A DNA stretch of 50,300 nt. Source: Patescibacteria group bacterium (GTDB lineage Bacteria > Patescibacteriota > Minisyncoccia > Minisyncoccales > PEYH01). Position numbers and translations under genes: made by a program. Numbering within the stretch: the first letter of the stretch is position 1; each line of letters opens with the position of its first letter. Location: NCBI GenBank assembly GCA_018900835.1, contig JAHIFQ010000015.1, positions 1 to 50,300 of the forward strand, written 5' to 3'. Below the pieces are notes generated by a model. That model was given only the letters and a program-made list of their open reading frames with translations, ran no database searches and was not told the DNA's origin. Positions 2,318 through 15,432 of the stretch are shown here, piece by piece.

Positions 2318-3451
2318 ATGATTAAACGTTATTATAATTTAGAAAAGTTAATAAAACCAAACAAAGCTCTGATTATTTATGGTCCTCGTAGAGTGGGTAA
2401 AACGACCTTACTTAATGATTTTTTATCATTTACTAAATTGAAATATAAATTGGACTCTGGAGACAATATCCGGATTCAAGAAATTTTCAGCTCTCAAAAT
2501 TTCTCGCAAATTAAGGAGTATGCTGCTGGTTATCAACTTATCGCAATAGATGAGGCGCAGCAAATTCCCAACATCGGCATAGGATTAAAAATTCTCATTG
2601 ACCAAGTGCCTGGTTTAAGCATAATCGCTACAGGTTCTTCTTCTTTTGATTTGGCGCAAAAAGTAGGCGAACCACTTACTGGTAGGAAGAAAACACTAAT
2701 TCTGTATCCTTTTTCTCAAGTGGAGCTTTTGGAAGAATATAATAAATATGAATTAAAAGAGAAACTTGAAGAATTTTTGATTTTTGGTTCTTATCCTGAA
2801 ATCATTACTGCCAAAAGTAACAAAGAAAAGATATCTTTATTAAACGAATTAGTTAATTCGTATTTATTGAAAGATGTTTTTAGTTTGGATAAAATAAAGG
2901 CATCAAAACAATTACTTGATTTATTAAAATTAATTGCTTTCCAAGTGGGCAGCGAGGTTTCTTTAAGCGAGCTGGCTACTCAAGTGAGGTTGGATGTTAA
3001 GACAGTGGGCAGATATTTGGATATTTTAGAAAAGGCCTTTGTTTTAAAACGAATCGGGGGATTTAATAGAAATTTACGGAAGGAAGTTTCTGGAAAAGCA
3101 AAATATTATTTTTATGATAATGGAGTCCGTAATGCAGTTATTTCTCAGTTTAATAATTTGAGCGATAGAGATGATGTCGGCGCTTTATTTGAGAATTTTG
3201 TTGTTATGGAAAGATTGAAAGACAATAGTTATAAAGCGAGGTCGGGAGATAGTTATTTCTGGCGGACTTACGATGGGCAGGAAGTCGATTTAGTAGAAGA
3301 AAGAAACGGCAAACTTTATGGATTTGAAATCAAATGGTCGCCTAAAGCAAAAATAAAAGAGCCAAAGGACTGGCTTGGAAGTTATAAGAATGCCCAATAT
3401 AAAGTAATCAATAAAGAGAATTATTTAGATTTCATTGGTTTAAGAGGTTAA
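2318..3451 (+). CDS. AAA_14/DUF4143 family ATPase with nuclease-like C-terminus
   Basis: A 377-residue ATPase of the family pairing an AAA_14 domain with DUF4143. Walker A is GPRRVGKTT (residues 22-30) and Walker B is LIAIDEA (74-80). A winged-helix-like stretch lies around 210-250 (SLSELATQVRLDVKTVGRYLDIL). The C-terminus has D324, E337 and K339 in the pattern of a degraded or active PD-(D/E)XK fold (EVDLVEE...FEIKWS). Such proteins are abundant in CPR, archaea and Bacteroidetes; their role is poorly known, with mobile-element or toxin-like behaviour often suggested. An AAGGAT Shine-Dalgarno-like site precedes the ATG. The whole gene lies between two identical 115-bp repeats, as expected for an inserted unit. 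Confidence 0.85.
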   Translation: MIKRYYNLEKLIKPNKALIIYGPRRVGKTTLLNDFLSFTKLKYKLDSGDNIRIQEIFSSQNFSQIKEYAAGYQLIAIDEAQQIPNIGIGLKILIDQVPGLSIIATGSSSFDLAQKVGEPLTGRKKTLILYPFSQVELLEEYNKYELKEKLEEFLIFGSYPEIITAKSNKEKISLLNELVNSYLLKDVFSLDKIKASKQLLDLLKLIAFQVGSEVSLSELATQVRLDVKTVGRYLDILEKAFVLKRIGGFNRNLRKEVSGKAKYYFYDNGVRNAVISQFNNLSDRDDVGALFENFVVMERLKDNSYKARSGDSYFWRTYDGQEVDLVEERNGKLYGFEIKWSPKAKIKEPKDWLGSYKNAQYKVINKENYLDFIGLRG

Positions 3452-3706: not shown

Positions 3707-3821
3707 AAGAAGGGGTTTTTTGTTTTCCACTATTTCTCCACTACTTTTGCTTTGAATTTTTTGAGAATTAGTTTAAAATAGATTTAATAGAATAAAGAAC
3801 AATTAAAGGCCTGCTTAGGAG
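3707..3821 (+). repeat. 115-bp perfect direct repeat, copy 2
   Basis: Second copy of the repeat at 2003-2117. It runs to within 20 bases of the GTG start of the giant gene and contains its likely promoter. Confidence 0.92.
3752..3779 (+). promoter_or_regulatory. Probable promoter of the giant surface-protein gene
   Basis: TTGAAT (3752-3757), a 16-bp spacer and TAAAAT (3774-3779), about 62 bp before the GTG at 3842. The same element exists in repeat copy 1 at 2048-2075, where it could read into the ATPase region. Confidence 0.55.
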
Positions 3822-3841
3822 CAGGGGAGTTATTTGGTATT

Positions 3842-6800
3842 GTGGTAATATTTAGAAAAAAATATTTATCGCTCGAAGAGGCAAGAAGATATTTGCGAAG
3901 AAGGGGCAAGACATATTCCTCTGCTTATTTGAGTTTGTTGGCGAAAAAGGAAAAATTACAAGCGATAAAAATTAATAAGAAATGGATTACTACAAGGGTG
4001 TGGTTGAAAGAATTTTTGAGTCAATCAAAGCTTGACCCCCAAAAACTCCAAAAGAATAAGAAAGCCAAAAAACTTGAGGTTCAAAAAGAAGGATTAGTTT
4101 TGCCATTATACTTTGGTTGGGCGATTAAACTTGATTTTGTAAAGTTTTATCGCGAAAATCTTGATTGGCATTTAGAGTGGCATCTAAAATTACCGAAATT
4201 GCCGATTAAGTTGAATATTAAATTTTTTCACAAAAAATGGCAGAGGATTATGAGCGCATTTTTTGCTGTTTGTATAATCGGGCTTGGAGGATTCCTGTTT
4301 TATCACATATATTTTACCTCCAGCGTAACTTATCAATGGGTTCAGACAGATTGGTCAGGAGGAGAGGACCAAGTCAATTATCCTTTACATCCGACAAATC
4401 AAACTAATTGGACAAAATACTGGTCTAAGGCGAGTGATATTAAAATATCTGTTGCAGGCGAAGTTAGTTATGAAACAAGCGCAACCCTACCTCCTAAAAC
4501 CGCCATTTTGCCAACTGCCAGATACGATGCTCCGGCTGTTTACGACACTACTTCTAATAAGTTTTACATTATCGGCGGGTATGATTTAGATGGCTCGGAT
4601 GACCCGAGATTTTTAACAGAGATAGTGCAATATAATTCATCTACTGATGTTGCTACAACAACAGGCATGGGCTCTCTGCCTGTTCAATTAAGAGGACATT
4701 CAGCAGACCTGAATCCTGATAATGGAAAAATATATATCTTTGGCGGATACGACAATACTAATTCTCAATTCAACAGCACTATTTATACTTTTAATCCTGC
4801 CAGTCCTTCAGGCGATGCCACGAGCACTGCTTATTCTTTGCCTTCTGGCAGGGAATATGCGCCAGCTGTTTATGCGCCTAATGTTGATAAATTCTACATC
4901 TTTGGCGGATTCTATTTAGACGGCTCACTAAACCAGACATATTTAGATGAGATTATTGAATTTAATCCATCCACAGGAGCAACTTCTACAATTACCGCAG
5001 GGTCTTTGCCAGCGCTTAAAGGCAGTTCAGCAGTATATTACCCAGTTAACGGGTTGATTTATATCTTCGGCGGTTATGACAATACCGCAGGAGATTATTC
5101 GGATAAAATATATTCTTTTAATCCTCTAAATCCAACTGCTGGCGCTTCTGATACAGGGTATATGATGCCGAGTAAAAGAGCTTACACCACAGCAGCTTAT
5201 TATTATAGTTTCGGCGATGCGAGTATTAAAAAAATGTATATTTTTGGCGGTTATCGTTTAACCGGAGACACTTCGTTTTATCTTAACGAAGTTTTAAAAT
5301 TTGATGGCACTGCCAGCCCTGCTGCGCAAGCAAATCCTTTGGCAAAAAATTTAAAAAGCGCATCAGCTGTTTTTAATTCTTCGGAAAATAAGATATATGT
5401 TTTTGCTGGCTTTGACGGAGACGGGGAGGCATTTTCAGACACAATTTACCATTATCCTCTTACTCCTATGGCCCCATTGGTATCTTCTCCATACAACACT
5501 ACTGACCCAGCAGTCACCTTGGCCCAGCTTTCTTGGAGCGAGACATTGGCTGGTGGCACAACGATTCTTTTCCAGATAAGAACAGCGAGTAATGATGATA
5601 ATAGCACGCCAGCTGACCCAAGCGATGATACCCCAAATATTTGGACTGATTGGTGCGGACCTGATAATGGAGCAGCAGGATGCGACACTAACACCTATTT
5701 CACTGATAATGCCGGCGGAGAGGCGATTGATGCGATATTTAAAGATGCTGCTGATGACCAATGGATTCAGTACAAAGTTTTCTTAATCACTGACTCTTTG
5801 GATCAAACTCCGGTTTTGAGCGATGTAACAATGACTTATGTTGTTAATACTGCGCCCACTGTTTCCGATGTAACAGGTTCACAGGATTCTGTTGGGGCAG
5901 TGAATATTAGTTATGGTTGGACAGACGCAGAAGAGGCGACAAGCACGATTTATCTTTTTTACGATTTAGGAATTACTTTGGATGGAGATATTGACGCGGA
6001 TGTTACTACGATTTCTGTTTCTGACGCCACTTACTTGGCTAATTCAGGGACCATTCAACTTGATTCTGAACAGATTACTTATATTGGGAAAAGCGGAAAT
6101 GATTTAACAGGGTGCACAAGAGGAGCTAACAATACTGTTTATTATAAGGCGACACATTCGTCAGGCGGAACGGTTTGGATTAAAGCGAATACCGCAACAG
6201 GAGATATTGGGTCTGGTATATCAGCTGGCAGCGGAAAGGCGATTGTTTGGACTCCAAAAACAGACATTGACGGTTATTACGCAGCCAGTACAGTCAAAGT
6301 TAGGGTGGTGGCAAATGACGGCAATGCTGCCAGACAAGCGGGTTCAGCGGATTCGTCTGTTTTTGAATTTGATACCAAAGACCCAGTAATTGGCTTAACA
6401 GCAGTGGGCAGTACAGGCATAGATATAAACGGAAATGCCACTACCAGCAAAGGGATAGAGAAAACTAATGTTTTGAGCAATATTGTTCATCTTGCAAGCA
6501 CTGATGATACTGCTTTAGAATTTATCTTATCTAATGACGGAACATTTGACACTGAAGTTTATGAGTCATACGCATCTTCAACCAACTGGTCGTTAGATGA
6601 GTTTTGCGCAGACCAGGAGTATGGCTGCGTGAAAACAGTTTATGTAAAATTCAAAGATACAAAGGGCAATGAAATCGGACCTTACACTGATACCATTACT
6701 TTGGATAATAATCCGCCAGCCATACCATCCAACTCCTTTATTCAGGATGTGTCTAATGCCAGCACAAGCCAGTTCCGGCTGTTTGTTACATGGGACAAGG

Positions 6801-9800
6801 CCACAGTTTCTGACTGGATAAGGTACGAGATTTATCGCTCAACAAACGGAATCGATTTCGCCTTGTATGACACTATTACTGATATTAATCTTAATTACAA
6901 GTTGGAAATTGACCTTGTCCAGGGCAATACATATTATTATAAAATACGGTCTGTTGACGACATTATTAATAATTCCGACTACTCCACAACCGTGTCAATG
7001 GAGGCAGGTGGGAATCCTGCTGATAATGTTCCGCCTGCAATATCAGGAGTCGCCACTTCCACACCGACAATCAATTCAGTCATTGTCACCTGGTCAACAG
7101 ATGAAATATCAACTTCGCAGGTTATTTATTCCACTAATGCCTCGGTTCCCGAGGGCTCTCCAACCCAAGGGGTGAGCGGATATGGTACTGCTCATTCTGT
7201 TACGCTTACAGGTTTAGTCCACACAACCACGTATTATTTTAAGGCCCATTCATGCGATGCTTCCAGCAACTGCTCTGATTCAACCATTGGTCAATTTACC
7301 ACTGCGACCCCTGACCAGACAGGTCCGTTTATTTTCACACCGATTATTGTATCTGATATTAGCGAAAACTCTGCCACAATATCATGGGACACTGATGAAT
7401 CATCCACTTCCTTTGTGGAATACTCTATTAGTTCGGGATTCAGTTCTGGCACAATACAGGGTGATTTTGCTTATGTGACTTCGCACGAGGTTACTATACA
7501 TGGATTAAGTCCCTCAACTAATTATTATTTCAAAGTGCGTTCAACTGATTCTTCGGGCAATGAATCAATATCTGCGGAAAATAGTTTTAGCACCAGCGCT
7601 TCAAGTGAAGATGTTACTCCGCCGAGCATTTCTGATGTTTCGACTTCCGGCATTGCATATAACACTGCCACAGCAACTTGGACAACTAATGAAAACTCAT
7701 CTTCTTTTGTTGAATTTGGTTTATCCACTTCTTATGGAAGAATTTACGGACAAGACGATTCAGTGACTTCGCATTCAGTTAATTTGCCCCAAGACCTTTT
7801 GCCTGCCACGCTTTACCATTTTAGAGTAAGGTCGGTTGATGGAGCTGGGAATGAAGGCATATCTGGCGACTACACATTTACCACCAGCGGAGACCCGAGT
7901 GACAGCACTGCTCCAACTATTTCCAATGTCCAAATAGGCGAGCCAGCCAAAACATCAATTACAATTACCTGGGACACAGACGAAGTAGCTGATTCATATA
8001 TTGGTTTTTCCGCTGCTACAACCACTTATTCACATGAACAAGGATTGCCGACAATGGCAACAAGCCATTCAGTGACCTTGGTTGGCTTATGGCCTGATAC
8101 TACTTATTATTTCCAAGTAAAATCAAAAGACCCTTCTGGCAATCAACAAATTGATAGTAATAGTGGACAGGGATACTCTTTTACCACCCTCACTTCTGTA
8201 TCAGACCCGCCAGTAATTTCCAATGTCCAAATTATTGATACTGGTTCAAACACTGCAACCATTACTTGGAGTACTAATAAAAGCGCTAATTCTTTTGTTG
8301 AGTATGGGCTAGATACTGCCTATGGTTATTCGCAAGGGCTATATAATTCTGCGACTTCCCACTCTGTGACTTTAGTAGGGCTTTTGTCTCAAGCCACTTA
8401 TCATTTCAGAGTAAGGTCCACTGATTCTGACAGCAACGAAGGCGTATCACAGGATTACACTCTTACCACAGAATCAGCAGCGGATATTACTCCACCAGTC
8501 ATTTCTAGTGTTCAGGCAACCAATATCACCCTAATAACAGCTGATATAACCTGGACTACAAATGAAAATACTGACAATATAGTTACTTACGGTTCTGCTA
8601 CTTCAAGCTTGGATAGGGTTGCTGGTAGCAATGCCAGTTCAACAACTTCGCATACTGTTTCCTTAACAAATTTAACCCCAGGCACAACTTATTATTATCA
8701 GGTTCAATCAAGAGACGCTGCTGGTAATATCACAATAGACAACAATAGCGGAAGTTATTATAGTTTTACTGCCACATCAGACACCACAGCGCCGGTTATC
8801 AGCAATGTTGCGGTTCCGGTAAAAGATAGAAATTCTGCCACCATCACTTGGGATACAGATGAAGATGCTACATCGCAGGCAGAATATTCTTTGAACAGCG
8901 ATTTATCAAGTTCAACTGCTACTACAGAAATTACTAATCTTCGGCAACAACACAGCGTTATCGTATCAGGCCTGACATCTGACACCACTTATTATTACCG
9001 GGTAATTTCCAAAGATGCCTACAATAATTCTGCTACTTCAAGTATTTCTTCTTTTGACACCACTGGAGCTAAAGAGGACAGCACTGCGCCAGTCATTTCC
9101 AGCGTTTCTTCTGGGTCTATTACTCTTATATCCGCAGTAATTATTTGGACCACTAATGAGAATTCAAATTCAATAGTTGACTATGGCACAACAGTATCGC
9201 TTGGCTCTATGGCAGGCCAGATTACTGACTCCGCAACCAGTCACTCGGTAAGTTTGGTTGGATTAGATTCAGGAACCCTTTATTATTATCAGGTGCGGTC
9301 CCAGGATTCTTCAGGCAATATTGGCACAGATAATAATTCAGGGAGTTATTATACTTTTACAACAACAGCAGATACTACTGGCCCTGTTATTTCAAGCGTT
9401 ACTGCTTCCACTATTTCAGACACATCAGCAACCATCACTTGGAATACGGATGAATTATCAACTTCACAGGTTGTTTATGGGGTCTCTACAACATACGGTT
9501 CCCAAACAACAGAGGATTCTACTTTGACTTATCAGCATTCAGTAACAGTTACGGGATTAGAGAGGGAGACCACTTATTATTATAAAGTTATTTCAAAAGA
9601 TTCTGCTGATAATTCCACAACAGATGATAATTCAGGCAGTGGTTACACTTTCACTACCACGAGAGAGCCGGGCCAGACCGTGTATGTCGGCGGAGGCGGA
9701 GGCGGAGGAATCAGTTATGAAAGAGCAGACCAAAAACCGCCTACAATCAACGATTTAAAGATAGACGAAATAACTGCCATTTCTGCCAAGGTTTACTGGA

Positions 9801-11101
9801 AGACAGATGAAAAAGCAAGCGGATTAGTTGAGTATGGGACAACTGCCAGCTATGGCCAATCACAAGGGTTTTACGAAGCAACAGAATTAGAGCATACAGT
9901 TGTTGTAGACGGTTTGCTTCCCAATACCACTTATCATTTAAGACCAGTTTCTATTGATGATTGGGGAAATATTGGCAGGGGAACAGACAATAGCATCACA
10001 ACTATGTCAGGAGTGGCAGAGCTACCAATAGGGGAAATTACAATAGAGCAGATTATGGAAAGAATTGGGGGCATTACCACAAGCGAAGAATTGCAAGACA
10101 TTTATGCAATAATAGAAGAAACAGCTCAAAGGATTATGGAACCGCCATTTATTGCCGGAGAATATCCTGTGGTAGAGACAACTTCTGATTCAGCAAGGAT
10201 TATTTGGGTGACTGATCAAAATGCGAATAGTATGGTTGCTTATTCGCCTACTGGACAATATAGCCCTAATTCCCCTGATGCTTACAGGTATGTTGTTGGG
10301 AACCGCGAAGAATCGGCAACTTATCACTTTGTTGAGCTTTTGAACTTGAAACCGGACTCCACTTATCATTATCAAATTCGTTCGCAAGGAAAAATAGGAC
10401 CAGTAGCTAAGAGCGTTGACGCGACATTTAAGACCAAGCCAATTGGAATTGAGATTATTGGTTTAAGAATGACAAAACTTGGCCAGGATTTCGCAGAATT
10501 TACTTGGGACACCAATATCCCGGCCAGCTCCATTGTTGAATACACTGATTTGAAAACAGGAAAGACCCTTAGCCAAGGAGACAAGAGTTTAATTAAAGGC
10601 CATGTCTTTAAATTAGAAAAACTTGCTCTTAACACCGAGTATTCAGCAGTGGTAATTTGTCGGGATGAAGCTGGTAATGAAGCTAAGAGTACAAATATTG
10701 AGTTCACCACAGGCAAAGACAGTGTTGCCCCAACAATCACTCAAGTAAGAGCAAACTCCACGCTTTATCCAGGACAGGAATTAAAAGTTCAGACCATTAT
10801 TGATTGGCAGACCAACGAACCAGCGACCAGTCAGCTTTTCTGGAAAGAAGGGTCAATGACAAATGCGCAAGTGTTCAGCTCTACTGTGGATACGGCTTTG
10901 ACCAATAAACATGTGGTGGTGACCACTCGCTTTAAACCATCTACGGTCTACCGATTCTGGGTAGAATCAAAGGATATTGCTGGAAATACTGCCAGGTCAA
11001 AGGAATTTACTATCCTTACTCCGCAACGCACAGAGAGCGTGCTTGAAATGATAATTAGGAATTTTGAAGAAATATTCGGATGGACAAAAAGATTAAGATA
11101 A
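3842..11101 (+). CDS. Giant HTH-TM-kelch-fibronectin surface protein (2419 aa)
   Basis: A single-span membrane protein with a long extracellular part. Residues 7-60 resemble a MerR/excisionase-type helix-turn-helix (YLSLEEARRYLRR, then a second helix and KKWITTRVWLKEFL) and would lie in the cytoplasm. After a Lys-rich linker, one membrane span sits at about 137-158. Outside follow six kelch repeats (about 215-545, each with a YIFGGYD-type core), a middle region (545-985) of Ig-like segments, and about 14 fibronectin-III or purple-acid-phosphatase-N-like domains marked by ITWDTDE, HSVTLVGL and TTYYFQVKS motifs. A Gly-rich linker lies near 1950. The start is a GTG with GGGGAG about 12 bases upstream. 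Adhesion or surface-layer function is an inference; the HTH fusion is unusual. An ABC transporter pair follows 12 bp downstream. Confidence 0.85.
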   Translation: MVIFRKKYLSLEEARRYLRRRGKTYSSAYLSLLAKKEKLQAIKINKKWITTRVWLKEFLSQSKLDPQKLQKNKKAKKLEVQKEGLVLPLYFGWAIKLDFVKFYRENLDWHLEWHLKLPKLPIKLNIKFFHKKWQRIMSAFFAVCIIGLGGFLFYHIYFTSSVTYQWVQTDWSGGEDQVNYPLHPTNQTNWTKYWSKASDIKISVAGEVSYETSATLPPKTAILPTARYDAPAVYDTTSNKFYIIGGYDLDGSDDPRFLTEIVQYNSSTDVATTTGMGSLPVQLRGHSADLNPDNGKIYIFGGYDNTNSQFNSTIYTFNPASPSGDATSTAYSLPSGREYAPAVYAPNVDKFYIFGGFYLDGSLNQTYLDEIIEFNPSTGATSTITAGSLPALKGSSAVYYPVNGLIYIFGGYDNTAGDYSDKIYSFNPLNPTAGASDTGYMMPSKRAYTTAAYYYSFGDASIKKMYIFGGYRLTGDTSFYLNEVLKFDGTASPAAQANPLAKNLKSASAVFNSSENKIYVFAGFDGDGEAFSDTIYHYPLTPMAPLVSSPYNTTDPAVTLAQLSWSETLAGGTTILFQIRTASNDDNSTPADPSDDTPNIWTDWCGPDNGAAGCDTNTYFTDNAGGEAIDAIFKDAADDQWIQYKVFLITDSLDQTPVLSDVTMTYVVNTAPTVSDVTGSQDSVGAVNISYGWTDAEEATSTIYLFYDLGITLDGDIDADVTTISVSDATYLANSGTIQLDSEQITYIGKSGNDLTGCTRGANNTVYYKATHSSGGTVWIKANTATGDIGSGISAGSGKAIVWTPKTDIDGYYAASTVKVRVVANDGNAARQAGSADSSVFEFDTKDPVIGLTAVGSTGIDINGNATTSKGIEKTNVLSNIVHLASTDDTALEFILSNDGTFDTEVYESYASSTNWSLDEFCADQEYGCVKTVYVKFKDTKGNEIGPYTDTITLDNNPPAIPSNSFIQDVSNASTSQFRLFVTWDKATVSDWIRYEIYRSTNGIDFALYDTITDINLNYKLEIDLVQGNTYYYKIRSVDDIINNSDYSTTVSMEAGGNPADNVPPAISGVATSTPTINSVIVTWSTDEISTSQVIYSTNASVPEGSPTQGVSGYGTAHSVTLTGLVHTTTYYFKAHSCDASSNCSDSTIGQFTTATPDQTGPFIFTPIIVSDISENSATISWDTDESSTSFVEYSISSGFSSGTIQGDFAYVTSHEVTIHGLSPSTNYYFKVRSTDSSGNESISAENSFSTSASSEDVTPPSISDVSTSGIAYNTATATWTTNENSSSFVEFGLSTSYGRIYGQDDSVTSHSVNLPQDLLPATLYHFRVRSVDGAGNEGISGDYTFTTSGDPSDSTAPTISNVQIGEPAKTSITITWDTDEVADSYIGFSAATTTYSHEQGLPTMATSHSVTLVGLWPDTTYYFQVKSKDPSGNQQIDSNSGQGYSFTTLTSVSDPPVISNVQIIDTGSNTATITWSTNKSANSFVEYGLDTAYGYSQGLYNSATSHSVTLVGLLSQATYHFRVRSTDSDSNEGVSQDYTLTTESAADITPPVISSVQATNITLITADITWTTNENTDNIVTYGSATSSLDRVAGSNASSTTSHTVSLTNLTPGTTYYYQVQSRDAAGNITIDNNSGSYYSFTATSDTTAPVISNVAVPVKDRNSATITWDTDEDATSQAEYSLNSDLSSSTATTEITNLRQQHSVIVSGLTSDTTYYYRVISKDAYNNSATSSISSFDTTGAKEDSTAPVISSVSSGSITLISAVIIWTTNENSNSIVDYGTTVSLGSMAGQITDSATSHSVSLVGLDSGTLYYYQVRSQDSSGNIGTDNNSGSYYTFTTTADTTGPVISSVTASTISDTSATITWNTDELSTSQVVYGVSTTYGSQTTEDSTLTYQHSVTVTGLERETTYYYKVISKDSADNSTTDDNSGSGYTFTTTREPGQTVYVGGGGGGGISYERADQKPPTINDLKIDEITAISAKVYWKTDEKASGLVEYGTTASYGQSQGFYEATELEHTVVVDGLLPNTTYHLRPVSIDDWGNIGRGTDNSITTMSGVAELPIGEITIEQIMERIGGITTSEELQDIYAIIEETAQRIMEPPFIAGEYPVVETTSDSARIIWVTDQNANSMVAYSPTGQYSPNSPDAYRYVVGNREESATYHFVELLNLKPDSTYHYQIRSQGKIGPVAKSVDATFKTKPIGIEIIGLRMTKLGQDFAEFTWDTNIPASSIVEYTDLKTGKTLSQGDKSLIKGHVFKLEKLALNTEYSAVVICRDEAGNEAKSTNIEFTTGKDSVAPTITQVRANSTLYPGQELKVQTIIDWQTNEPATSQLFWKEGSMTNAQVFSSTVDTALTNKHVVVTTRFKPSTVYRFWVESKDIAGNTARSKEFTILTPQRTESVLEMIIRNFEEIFGWTKRLR

Positions 11102-11113
11102 AACAATAAAATA

Positions 11114-12403
11114 ATGGAACCCTTAATAAAGGCTCAAGGATTGAGCGTTATTTACAATGCTGGTCGTTCCAATGAGAATCGGGCGTTGGATAATGTGAGC
11201 ATAGAAATATACCCAAAGGAATATATTGTCTTGTTTGGTCCGTCTGGTTGTGGAAAATCAACTTTACTTTATGTTATTTTAGGACTTAGAAAACCGAGCT
11301 TGGGCTCTCTTTTTGTCAATAACAGGAATGTTGCTGATTTTAGTGAGAGCGACTTAGTTGAACATCGCAGAAGAACAATGGGCATAATTTTTCAAGCGTA
11401 TCATTTGATACCTACTTTGGATATTATGCAGAACGCTGTTCTCCCCAAGATGTTTATAAACGAGGGTGTAGTTGAAAGAGAGTTAAAGGCGGAAATGCTT
11501 TTAAGGCGTTTTGAAATTTGGCCCCAAAGTAAAAAATTTCCGTCTGCATTATCTGGCGGTGAGCAGCAGAGAGCTGCCATTGTAAGAGCGCTGATGAACG
11601 ACCCGCAAATAATTTTAGCTGATGAGCCAGTTGGCAATTTGGACAGTAAGTCAGCGGGGACAGTAATGGAGACATTGAAAGATATCAATGATAAAGATGG
11701 GAAAACAATCATTTTAGTCACCCATGACCAGAGATATTTACATTACGCTCACAGAGCTTATTTTATGCAGGATGGTAAAATTATCCGCGAGGTTATTAAT
11801 CCAGAGAAAAAACAATTTCGCAAAATGACAGAAAGAGAGCATGTCCACGAGGCCTTATTCAGAATGGCGAAAACATATCCGCACGCCTTAGTCGGCGAGC
11901 TGAAAGCAAAGGTCTTGGCTGATTATTTGACTAGGGAATTGAGCGAATACCAATGCGAAATTCTTGAAAAATCAATTAAGGATGTGTTGGAAAAAAGGAT
12001 TAATTTTGATGACCTATATTCTATTTTAGACAAACCCATAGAAGACGGCGGAGTTGGTCTTTACAAGCAGACAGCCCAGAGGTTTGTTGACCAAATAAAA
12101 GAACTTTTGAAAGGAGCAGAAACCTTAAGGGTTGAGCTCGGAAAAGAAATACCAGTATCAGAGCAGTTAGAACTGATAATGAAGCTAAGAAGATTATTGC
12201 TTGATGATTATAAGGGAGAACTTTCTTATCTTCGAGCCCAAAGAATTGAAGAGGGGATAGAACAGAGAATAAAAGGAACTTGGGATAAAAAGTTATTTCA
12301 AGAACTTTTAGATAGACCAGTGAAAGACGGGGGAGTTGGTCTTAAGCGTTCCACAGCAAGGAGATTAGCCAAGAAATTAGAAGTTATTTTATCACAGTCG
12401 TAA
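11114..12403 (+). CDS. MacB/LolD-type ABC transporter ATPase with duplicated C-terminal module
   Basis: The first 225 residues are a complete ABC ATPase of the LolD/MacB/FtsE branch: Walker A GPSGCGKST (42-50), Q-loop IIFQAYH, signature LSGGE (146-150), Walker B IILADEP (165-171) and H-loop H204. The protein is 429 residues, about 200 longer than the family norm. The tail holds two related modules (about 255-332 and 352-427), each ending in DKPIEDGGVGL or DRPVKDGGVGL followed by a basic helix. The partner permease begins 2 bp after the stop, so the two form a transporter of the type that moves lipoproteins, peptides or drugs across the membrane by mechanotransmission. The tail's role is unknown; regulation or docking is a guess. 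Confidence 0.9.
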   Translation: MEPLIKAQGLSVIYNAGRSNENRALDNVSIEIYPKEYIVLFGPSGCGKSTLLYVILGLRKPSLGSLFVNNRNVADFSESDLVEHRRRTMGIIFQAYHLIPTLDIMQNAVLPKMFINEGVVERELKAEMLLRRFEIWPQSKKFPSALSGGEQQRAAIVRALMNDPQIILADEPVGNLDSKSAGTVMETLKDINDKDGKTIILVTHDQRYLHYAHRAYFMQDGKIIREVINPEKKQFRKMTEREHVHEALFRMAKTYPHALVGELKAKVLADYLTRELSEYQCEILEKSIKDVLEKRINFDDLYSILDKPIEDGGVGLYKQTAQRFVDQIKELLKGAETLRVELGKEIPVSEQLELIMKLRRLLLDDYKGELSYLRAQRIEEGIEQRIKGTWDKKLFQELLDRPVKDGGVGLKRSTARRLAKKLEVILSQS

Positions 12404-12405
12404 TT

Positions 12406-13605
12406 ATGAAATTTTCTGATTCATTAAAACTTTCATTACGAATGTTTAGAACTAGGCCGTCTAGGACCTGGTTGACTATTTTCGGTATGGGTATTGGGAC
12501 TGGTGCGGTTTTATTTTTGATAGGTCTTGGATATGGTTTCCAACATTTGATTTTATCTAATATTGTAAGTAGCGACACTTTATTGAGCTTGACTATTTCC
12601 AGCACCCAACCTGATGTGATTATAATCAATGACCAGGCGTTAACAGAAATGAGGGAAATAGAGGGCATTAAAGATATTTCGCCAATTGTAAGTTATCCTG
12701 CCCAAATTGCGATGGGGGATTTAATCGGGAATATAGTTCTTAAAGGAATAGATGATAACTATTTGAAATACGAAGGAATCAATGTTAAAGATGGTGAGGA
12801 AATGGGAAAAGAAAAAAAAGAAGTTCTTGTTTCAGAAGCAGTTGTGATGCTTTTTGGAGCAGAAACTAATAGCGAGATTATAGGCAAAGAAGTCGAGGTT
12901 CAGATTTCAGGCGCCTTAGGAGAATCTGCTGTTGGTGGCGAGGAATTTATCCAATTTGACGATAAGTATAAAATTGTGGGAGTAGTTGTTGGAACGGAAT
13001 CTGTCTTTATATTCTTTCCATTATCGGATTTGCAAAAAAGGGTTGATATCTTTGAATACGAATCAGCTAAGGTAAGAGTTACTAAAGAGGCCAGCATAAT
13101 TCCTGTAAGCGATGCTTTAATTGATAAAGGTTTTCAAGTCATCTCTTTGTCTGAAACAGTAAATCAGGCAAATCAAATTTTTAGAGGAATACAATTTGCT
13201 TTGGGATTTTTTGGCGCCATTGCTTTGTTTGTTGCAGCCATTGGAATGGTCAACACAATGACTGTTACCCTATTAGAGCGCACTAATGAAATAGGAATTA
13301 TGAGAGCAACAGGCGCTTCAAAAAAAGATATTTTAACAATTTTCATGAGCGAGGCAACAGTAATGGGATTTTTAGGTGGAGTGGCTGGATTGATACTCGG
13401 AATTTTGGGTGGCTCTTTATTTAATTTGACAATAAATATAATTGCCGGAGCTTTTGGAGGAAAATCAATTAGTTTATTTTACTATCCAGCTTGGTTTATT
13501 ATCACTTTGATTGTAGTGTCCACTTCTGTTGGTTTGGCTGCTGGATTTTTCCCAGGCAGGAAAGCAGCTAAACTTGACCCATTGGACGCCTTACGGTATA
13601 AATAG
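12406..13605 (+). CDS. MacB/FtsX-family ABC transporter permease
   Basis: A 399-residue permease with the standard MacB layout. The N-terminal motif MKFSDSLKLSLRMFRTRPSR leads into the first membrane span (about 22-42); an extracytoplasmic MacB_PCD domain occupies about 45-255; and a C-terminal FtsX domain has three spans (roughly 262-288, 315-345 and 362-388) with TVTLLERTNEIGIMRATGAS, the conserved cytoplasmic coupling region. The C-terminus GRKAAKLDPLDALRYK is a family signature. It is translationally coupled to the ATPase gene (2-bp gap). The substrate is unknown; position behind a giant surface protein suggests envelope work but does not prove it. Confidence 0.93.
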   Translation: MKFSDSLKLSLRMFRTRPSRTWLTIFGMGIGTGAVLFLIGLGYGFQHLILSNIVSSDTLLSLTISSTQPDVIIINDQALTEMREIEGIKDISPIVSYPAQIAMGDLIGNIVLKGIDDNYLKYEGINVKDGEEMGKEKKEVLVSEAVVMLFGAETNSEIIGKEVEVQISGALGESAVGGEEFIQFDDKYKIVGVVVGTESVFIFFPLSDLQKRVDIFEYESAKVRVTKEASIIPVSDALIDKGFQVISLSETVNQANQIFRGIQFALGFFGAIALFVAAIGMVNTMTVTLLERTNEIGIMRATGASKKDILTIFMSEATVMGFLGGVAGLILGILGGSLFNLTINIIAGAFGGKSISLFYYPAWFIITLIVVSTSVGLAAGFFPGRKAAKLDPLDALRYK

Positions 13606-14757: not shown

Positions 14758-15432
14758 ATGGATGCTTGGACAACAATAGCGTGGGCTGGCGTAGAAAATT
14801 TTTGGATTGGCTTCTTGGATTTTATTCCTAAGCTGATTATGGCAATTATTGTTTTCATAATCGGTTGGTTGATAGCTGTTTTTATAGGACGGATTATTCA
14901 GGAGGTTCTAAAGAGATTGCAGCTTGATAAACTTTTTCAGGCAAGGAAGTGGACAGAGGCATTGGAAAAAGCAGAATTTGAAGCAAAGCCATCCGAGTTT
15001 ATCGGGTCATTGATAAAGTGGATTCTCGTGATAGTTGTGCTGTCTATTTCAGTAGAGGTATTGGGACTTACTCAATTCAGCGCATTTTTAGGACAAGTGG
15101 TTAATTGGCTGCCAAATCTGTTGGCTGCTGTGTTAATCTTTGTTGCCACTGTAATCATTGCTTCAATTTCAGAAAAATTAGTAAGAGCAAGTGTTCACGG
15201 AACCAAAGTGGGTTACAGTAAATTGGCAGGGACTATTACCAAGTGGGCTATTTGGACATTCGGTATTTCCGCAATTTTAATCCAATTAGGCATTGGCAGA
15301 AGTTTAATCTTGGTTATTTTCCAAGGCATTGTCGCCTTCCTTGCCATTGCAGGAGGATTGGCATTTGGTCTTGGAGGAAAGGAATCAGCTTCTGGTTTTC
15401 TGCACGAATTAAAGGGCAAATTCTCAAGGTAG
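14758..15432 (+). CDS. TM-helix-repeat membrane protein (MscS/CmpX-like)
   Basis: A 224-residue integral membrane protein with five predicted spans (about 25-46, 84-106, 117-138, 160-178 and 184-206). The segment FLDFIPKLIMAIIVFIIGWLIAV and the later NWLPNLLAAVLIFVATVII are the repeated TM_helix units (PF05552-type). The last span, FLAIAGGLAFGLGGKES, resembles the pore-lining helix of MscS channels. The cytoplasmic beta domain of true MscS is missing, so it belongs with CmpX/TM-helix proteins. A role in osmotic or envelope stress is plausible. Upstream, 14650-14655 (TATAAT) may be its -10 box. It is the last protein gene before the 23S rRNA. Confidence 0.8.
   Translation: MDAWTTIAWAGVENFWIGFLDFIPKLIMAIIVFIIGWLIAVFIGRIIQEVLKRLQLDKLFQARKWTEALEKAEFEAKPSEFIGSLIKWILVIVVLSISVEVLGLTQFSAFLGQVVNWLPNLLAAVLIFVATVIIASISEKLVRASVHGTKVGYSKLAGTITKWAIWTFGISAILIQLGIGRSLILVIFQGIVAFLAIAGGLAFGLGGKESASGFLHELKGKFSR

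Follow-up and report, generated by a model that had tools for sequence, protein, structure and literature searches.

The gene at positions 3842 to 11101 (+ strand) of the 50,300-nucleotide stretch of Patescibacteria DNA analyzed here (the window) encodes a single-pass membrane protein of 2,419 amino acids with a helix-turn-helix (HTH) domain inside the cell and kelch and fibronectin-like (fn3) repeats outside. It belongs to a family of HTH-span proteins with characteristic promoter motifs. Our best explanation, held with modest confidence on sequence grounds, is that the family would consist of membrane-tethered autoregulators of the BldC type with DnaA-linked expression, and that the window HTH is carried by the partner of an ABC transporter. 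The source organism is an ultra-small bacterium. Few regulators are known from Patescibacteria, and most of their surface proteins, on which contact with host cells probably depends, are uncharacterized.

Layout and HTH fold of the window protein

From its GTG start, the protein runs through a winged HTH of the BldC/Xis/HTH_17 type (residues 8-62; 3863 to 4027, + strand, as are all features of the gene and its operon), a fast-evolving cytoplasmic linker (residues 63-82; 4028 to 4087), a constrained juxtamembrane cytoplasmic segment with the motif GLVLPLYFGW (residues 83-133; 4088 to 4240), and a transmembrane helix (residues ~134-160; 4241 to 4321). Directly outside the membrane lies a TDWSGG module (4343 to 4483) that is present in 10 of 144 relatives. 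Pfam places a kelch-type propeller region at residues ~218-530 (4493 to 5431) and fn3/purple-acid-phosphatase-N-like (Pur_ac_phosph_N) repeats, in 11 stretches, at residues ~1168-2400 (7343 to 11041). The protein ends in an amphipathic-looking tail, ESVLEMIIRNFEEIFGWTKRLR (residues 2396-2419; 11027 to 11098), that is conserved and recurs in relatives. Hydropathy shows one strong membrane span, AlphaFold2 places this span within a single long helix (residues 126-161), and the inner side of the span is rich in lysine and arginine, which gives an N-in, C-out orientation. The initial annotation, made from the letters alone, had described an HTH near residues 7-60, a single span, and a kelch and fibronectin-like exterior, and all three were recovered. 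The GTG start and the HTH codons are kept in the orthologs of genomes G001 and G042, which indicates that the start is right and that residues 1-130 are not removed by a later one.

Structure prediction likewise returned the HTH that the annotation had read from the sequence. With an alignment of 58 relatives as input, AlphaFold2 modeled the N terminus as a winged HTH with a block pLDDT of 94 to 96. The best fold matches were two BldC-DNA structures, 6ama (Z 7.4, rmsd 2.4 over 53 residues) and 6amk (Z 7.2, rmsd 1.7 over 51), with phage Xis, RdfS, BmrR, and RacA (Z 5.2) among the others. These Z values are modest, but the top matches all share a functional class and extend over the complete domain, and the window HTH is therefore predicted to have the winged-HTH fold of the BldC/Xis class. 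Pfam found no HTH in the window protein, and a phmmer search of the HTH against PDB sequences gave no match. HTH_17 (PF12728) was matched by 47 of the 58 aligned N-terminal relatives, with a best E value of 1.1e-5, weaker than a confident Pfam call. The window HTH has a 5-residue insertion relative to canonical family members and is a divergent side branch of the family.

Comparison with the G001 ortholog gave dN/dS of 0.088/1.69, or about 0.05, for residues 7-61, with synonymous divergence saturated; by this sequence measure, the HTH is under purifying selection. Against the G001 and G042 orthologs, dN rises to 0.46 to 0.69 in the linker (residues about 62-82), while residues 83-133 are 88 to 96% identical (dN 0.025 to 0.059). 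These values bear on the view that the HTH is a decayed passenger without function, a view favored by the lack of an HTH in several relatives of this giant protein and of a Pfam score in the window protein. Because of the selection signal on the HTH, and with a confident fold besides, we give that view very little weight.

An ABC transporter operon as the probable partner of the exterior

The giant gene heads a three-gene operon. It is followed by an ABC ATPase of the MacB type (11114 to 12403), recognized by Pfam and by a fold match to the MacB nucleotide-binding domain (NBD; Z 32.7), and by a MacB/FtsX-type permease (12406 to 13605; Pfam FtsX, 3.1e-20; MacB_PCD, 2.5e-18). The genes at 11114 to 13605 are thus a MacB-type ABC system. 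The ATPase carries a C-terminal helical extension of ~200 residues with two DGGVGL repeats (11804 to 12400). This extension and the C-terminal tail of the giant protein have one distribution: of 144 genomes, the 8 with the extension are exactly the 8 with the tail. The naive probability of this by chance is 3e-13, a value inflated by close relatives. The order giant-ATPase-permease is kept in seven of the eight, the genes not being adjacent in G038. Downstream of the ABC genes, positions 14758 to 15432 encode a small membrane protein resembling a mechanosensitive channel (MS_channel_1st_1, E value of 2e-19).

Homologs of the giant protein without the HTH are found in G005, G038, G061, G090, G135, and G060; relatives sharing the exterior and C-terminal tail can lack the HTH, so it is optional rather than intrinsic there. 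The motif GLVLPLYFGW is also present in the HTH-less relatives in G135 and G060. The nearest homolog, in G084, keeps the HTH and has FG-GAP repeats instead of kelch. The steadier partner of the exterior and tail is the MacB-type ABC transporter, not the HTH, and the window protein is best read as the ABC system's outer partner, which gained an HTH end in some lineages. A stronger version, to which we assign close to an even chance, holds that the protein is mainly the outer arm of a MacB/FtsX-type system for mechanical signaling or export and that the HTH is a lineage-specific add-on. The shared distribution of tail and extension, the conserved gene order, the HTH-less homologs, and the MacB-like NBD all argue for it; it leaves the purifying selection on the HTH unexplained. 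It is compatible with our best explanation and does not exclude it. Quite apart from the HTH, the tail and the ATPase extension that goes with it delineate a new surface system linked to an ABC transporter.

The HTH-span family and its promoters

The annotation had suggested looking for the same order of HTH, membrane span, and exterior elsewhere, and this architecture proved to be recurrent in Patescibacteria. Relatives encoding the HTH were found in 63 of 147 genomes of the order by N-terminus search, and a profile search found the HTH in 76 of 380 genomes across the phylum, with the membrane span checked in part of the matches. A collection-wide scan with the window N terminus returned one locus only. 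From the stretches fetched we collected ~75 distinct HTH proteins, 66 of which have a single membrane span no more than 100 residues from the HTH. The HTH is near-constant (YISLQEATKYCxYSQEYLSLRARQGKLKAVKxGRNWVTTKEWLxEYL), and some proteins carry two in tandem. The exteriors are very diverse, with collagen, LamG, kelch, FG-GAP, LVIVD, and beta-helix types and adhesin-like repeats, and reach 4,800 residues. A short HTH-span gene paired with a giant neighbor is a recurrent arrangement, both within the order and elsewhere in the class (loci L125-L130, L036, L072, and L090-L093). Outside the order, the same HTH also occurs in small soluble proteins. Fic-like proteins with an HTH of this family at the C terminus (L060, L068, L094, L101, L103, L114, L118, L122, and L123) are found both within the order and outside it.

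The upstream regions of 66 HTH-span genes were compared with 303 other upstream regions from the same loci, and the words TTATCCACA and TATCGGATA were enriched. TTATCCACA, which is the DnaA-box consensus (PMC11317965), occurs in 33 of the 66 promoters versus 9 of the 303 controls; permuted words of the same letters occur in 0.33 promoters on average and in 7 at most. In family promoters TTATCCACA precedes a TTGAC -35 element by a few bases, a pattern with ~95 matches in 100 genomes versus 1 for the reversed control. This class of promoter is also seen ahead of genes for RNR, lexA, mraZ, a sigma-like protein, rpoB, and Gp49-like proteins (L191-L240). An origin of replication was sought at a cluster of TTATCCACA on contig C14 of G000, and no dnaA was present there, so the label "DnaA box" draws on the consensus and the downstream genes rather than on a known origin. 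From sequence, these promoters look like a DnaA or cell-cycle class, a putative DnaA regulon in Patescibacteria.

A second element, TATCSGATA, is specific to HTH genes: it occurs at 1.61 per kb upstream of HTH-span genes versus 0.058 per kb elsewhere and in none of 39 other promoters carrying a DnaA-like box. With up to 3 mismatches allowed in 14 positions, the palindrome ATATCGG-N4-CCGATAT is found in 38% of the 66 promoters, near or over the promoter, and in 42% of a held-out set of 31 promoters, taken from HTH-TM genes that played no part in finding the motif and come almost entirely from other orders and classes, versus 1.4% of 353 control promoters (Fisher P = 8e-18 for the 66 and 3e-12 for the held-out set, values that ignore phylogeny). 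Enrichment peaks only at a spacer of 4 nt. The palindrome was found in 19 of 22 families, many HTH-TM gene promoters do without it, and 9 promoters of Fic proteins carrying a related HTH, examined as a further control, all lacked it. In the IKGKKI subfamily, giants with tandem HTHs (L036, L072, and L131) have another leader palindrome, approximately ATCTCGA-N3-TCGAGAT, and the site may thus change with the recognition helix.

Known BldC sites carry AATTCGG repeats (PMC5859096), which are close to the ATATCGG of the family. This similarity, together with the palindrome in promoters of HTH genes, held-out genes included, suggests that the HTH reads the palindrome, and from these sequences we infer that the family members are probably membrane-tethered autoregulators. 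At odds with this reading, BldC itself binds direct rather than inverted repeats. Motif and HTH could also be linked through a third factor, with another protein reading the palindrome.

In one such arrangement the HTH would be a module for protein interaction of the RodZ kind, linking the surface protein with the wall-growth machinery (SEDS/MreB), and the palindrome would be left to another regulator. An FtsW/RodA gene, identified by PF01098 (E value of 1.6e-86), lies directly ahead of 42 of 65 family genes, 36 within 500 nt, and the second family copy in the window genome is also behind one. All 60 relatives searched encode MreB, while the RodZ-type HTH_25 scores above the cutoff in only 3 of 60; both results speak for a RodZ-like role. 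HTH_25 (PF13413) had no match in the window protein or in the leading families of the 58 N-terminal relatives. This module reading is nonetheless unlikely in our estimate. Structurally, the HTH matches the BldC/Xis/MerR class, the family occurs in under half of the genomes, and the window gene has no FtsW/RodA (SEDS) neighbor. The promoter motif is tied to HTH genes with or without such a neighbor, TATCSGATA being found in 26 of 43 with and 7 of 23 without.

Near-exact copies of the palindrome number ~1 per genome where present, and those that are not ahead of HTH genes are almost all inside open reading frames (ORFs). These counts weigh on the annotation's alternative that the HTH anchors the chromosome to the envelope, as RacA does. 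The fold match to RacA and the membrane location of each protein speak for an anchor, but a dense set of sites was not seen, and the claim gained no positive support; we regard an anchor as very improbable.

The promoter of the window gene departs from the family pattern. Direct repeats that look like DnaA boxes, the 9-mers TTTTCCACT-AT-TTCTCCACT (3723 to 3742, + strand; 7 of 9 matches each), lie 2 bp apart and are conserved in G001 and G042; exact matches elsewhere in the genome are confined to a duplicate of this promoter. E. coli DnaA prefers double boxes 2 or 3 bp apart (PMC11317965), and the window boxes have this geometry. They are followed by a promoter-like TTGAAT-16 nt-TAAAAT (3752 to 3779, + strand), conserved in the orthologs, and by a 5' leader hairpin, CCTGCTTAGGAGCAGG (3810 to 3825, + strand; CCTGCT-N4-AGCAGG, paired by eye), kept in G001 and G042. 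The hairpin was set aside as an operator because its loop length differs between orthologs. The family palindrome was not found in this promoter. The proposal that the window protein is a one-component regulator linking surface contact to transcription accordingly stands in part: the DNA-binding fold and the palindrome of the family speak for it, and the gene's own promoter does not.

The duplicate is a 115-nt exact direct repeat (2003-2117 and 3707-3821) that flanks an AAA/DUF4143 gene (2318-3451), which now lies behind a promoter copy. The second box copy (2022-2038) falls within the repeat and was rejected as independent evidence. Nearby, at 475-1203 and 1209-2186, an IS200-like (RAYT-type) transposase gene lies beside four copies of AATAGTACACGTCCCCGATTT, possibly REP-like elements, and a similar transposase gene and element are found upstream of the G042 ortholog.

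Proposed mechanism and comparison with known systems

In the mechanism we propose, the HTH would remain cytoplasmic, one helix would span the membrane, and the variable, often giant part would be displayed outside. Paired on the membrane, the HTH would bind the palindrome in the promoter of its gene; transcription of the gene would then be under feedback from how much surface protein is present or how far it is engaged, and the DnaA-like box would tie expression to the cell cycle. By analogy, the window HTH might regulate its three-gene operon via a different site. A sensor role is plausible for the family on these data and unproven for the window protein. We extend the proposal only tentatively to the whole phylum, where hypervariable giant surface proteins would share a constant HTH reading a constant operator in their own promoters, with the DnaA box tying them to the replication cycle. 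The surface coat may then control its own genes from the membrane, and, since the HTH is constant and its candidate operator specific, the regulation of surface proteins is directly testable by one binding assay.

The window protein resembles transmembrane transcription regulators of the CadC/ToxR class in combining a cytoplasmic winged HTH, a DNA-binding-type domain, with a single span and an exterior in one polypeptide. The HTH of CadC and ToxR is of the OmpR type, whereas that of the family is of the BldC type, and the family exteriors, of up to 4,800 residues, consist of adhesin-like repeats. The main text of a survey of transmembrane regulators does not mention Patescibacteria, Parcubacteria, or HTH_17 (PMC10269533). 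If our reading is true, membrane-bound transcription regulation would reach into a major bacterial branch that has hardly been studied.

The family is like BldC and the phage excisionases in its MerR-like winged HTH and in a candidate site where CGG follows AT-rich bases. BldC, a protein of 68 residues, is untethered and binds direct repeats (PMC5859096), whereas the HTH here is membrane-tethered and the two halves of its candidate site are inverted, with a 4-nt spacer between them. Like RodZ, the family has the order HTH, membrane span, and exterior and often lies beside SEDS genes; unlike RodZ, its HTH is of another Pfam family, and HTH_25 is rarely detected in these genomes. Finally, the window operon is like the MacB, FtsEX, and LolCDE systems in its adjacent ATPase and permease with MacB_PCD and FtsX domains and in its MacB-like NBD, and differs from them in the long C-terminal extension of its ATPase and in having a giant fn3 protein as the neighboring partner.
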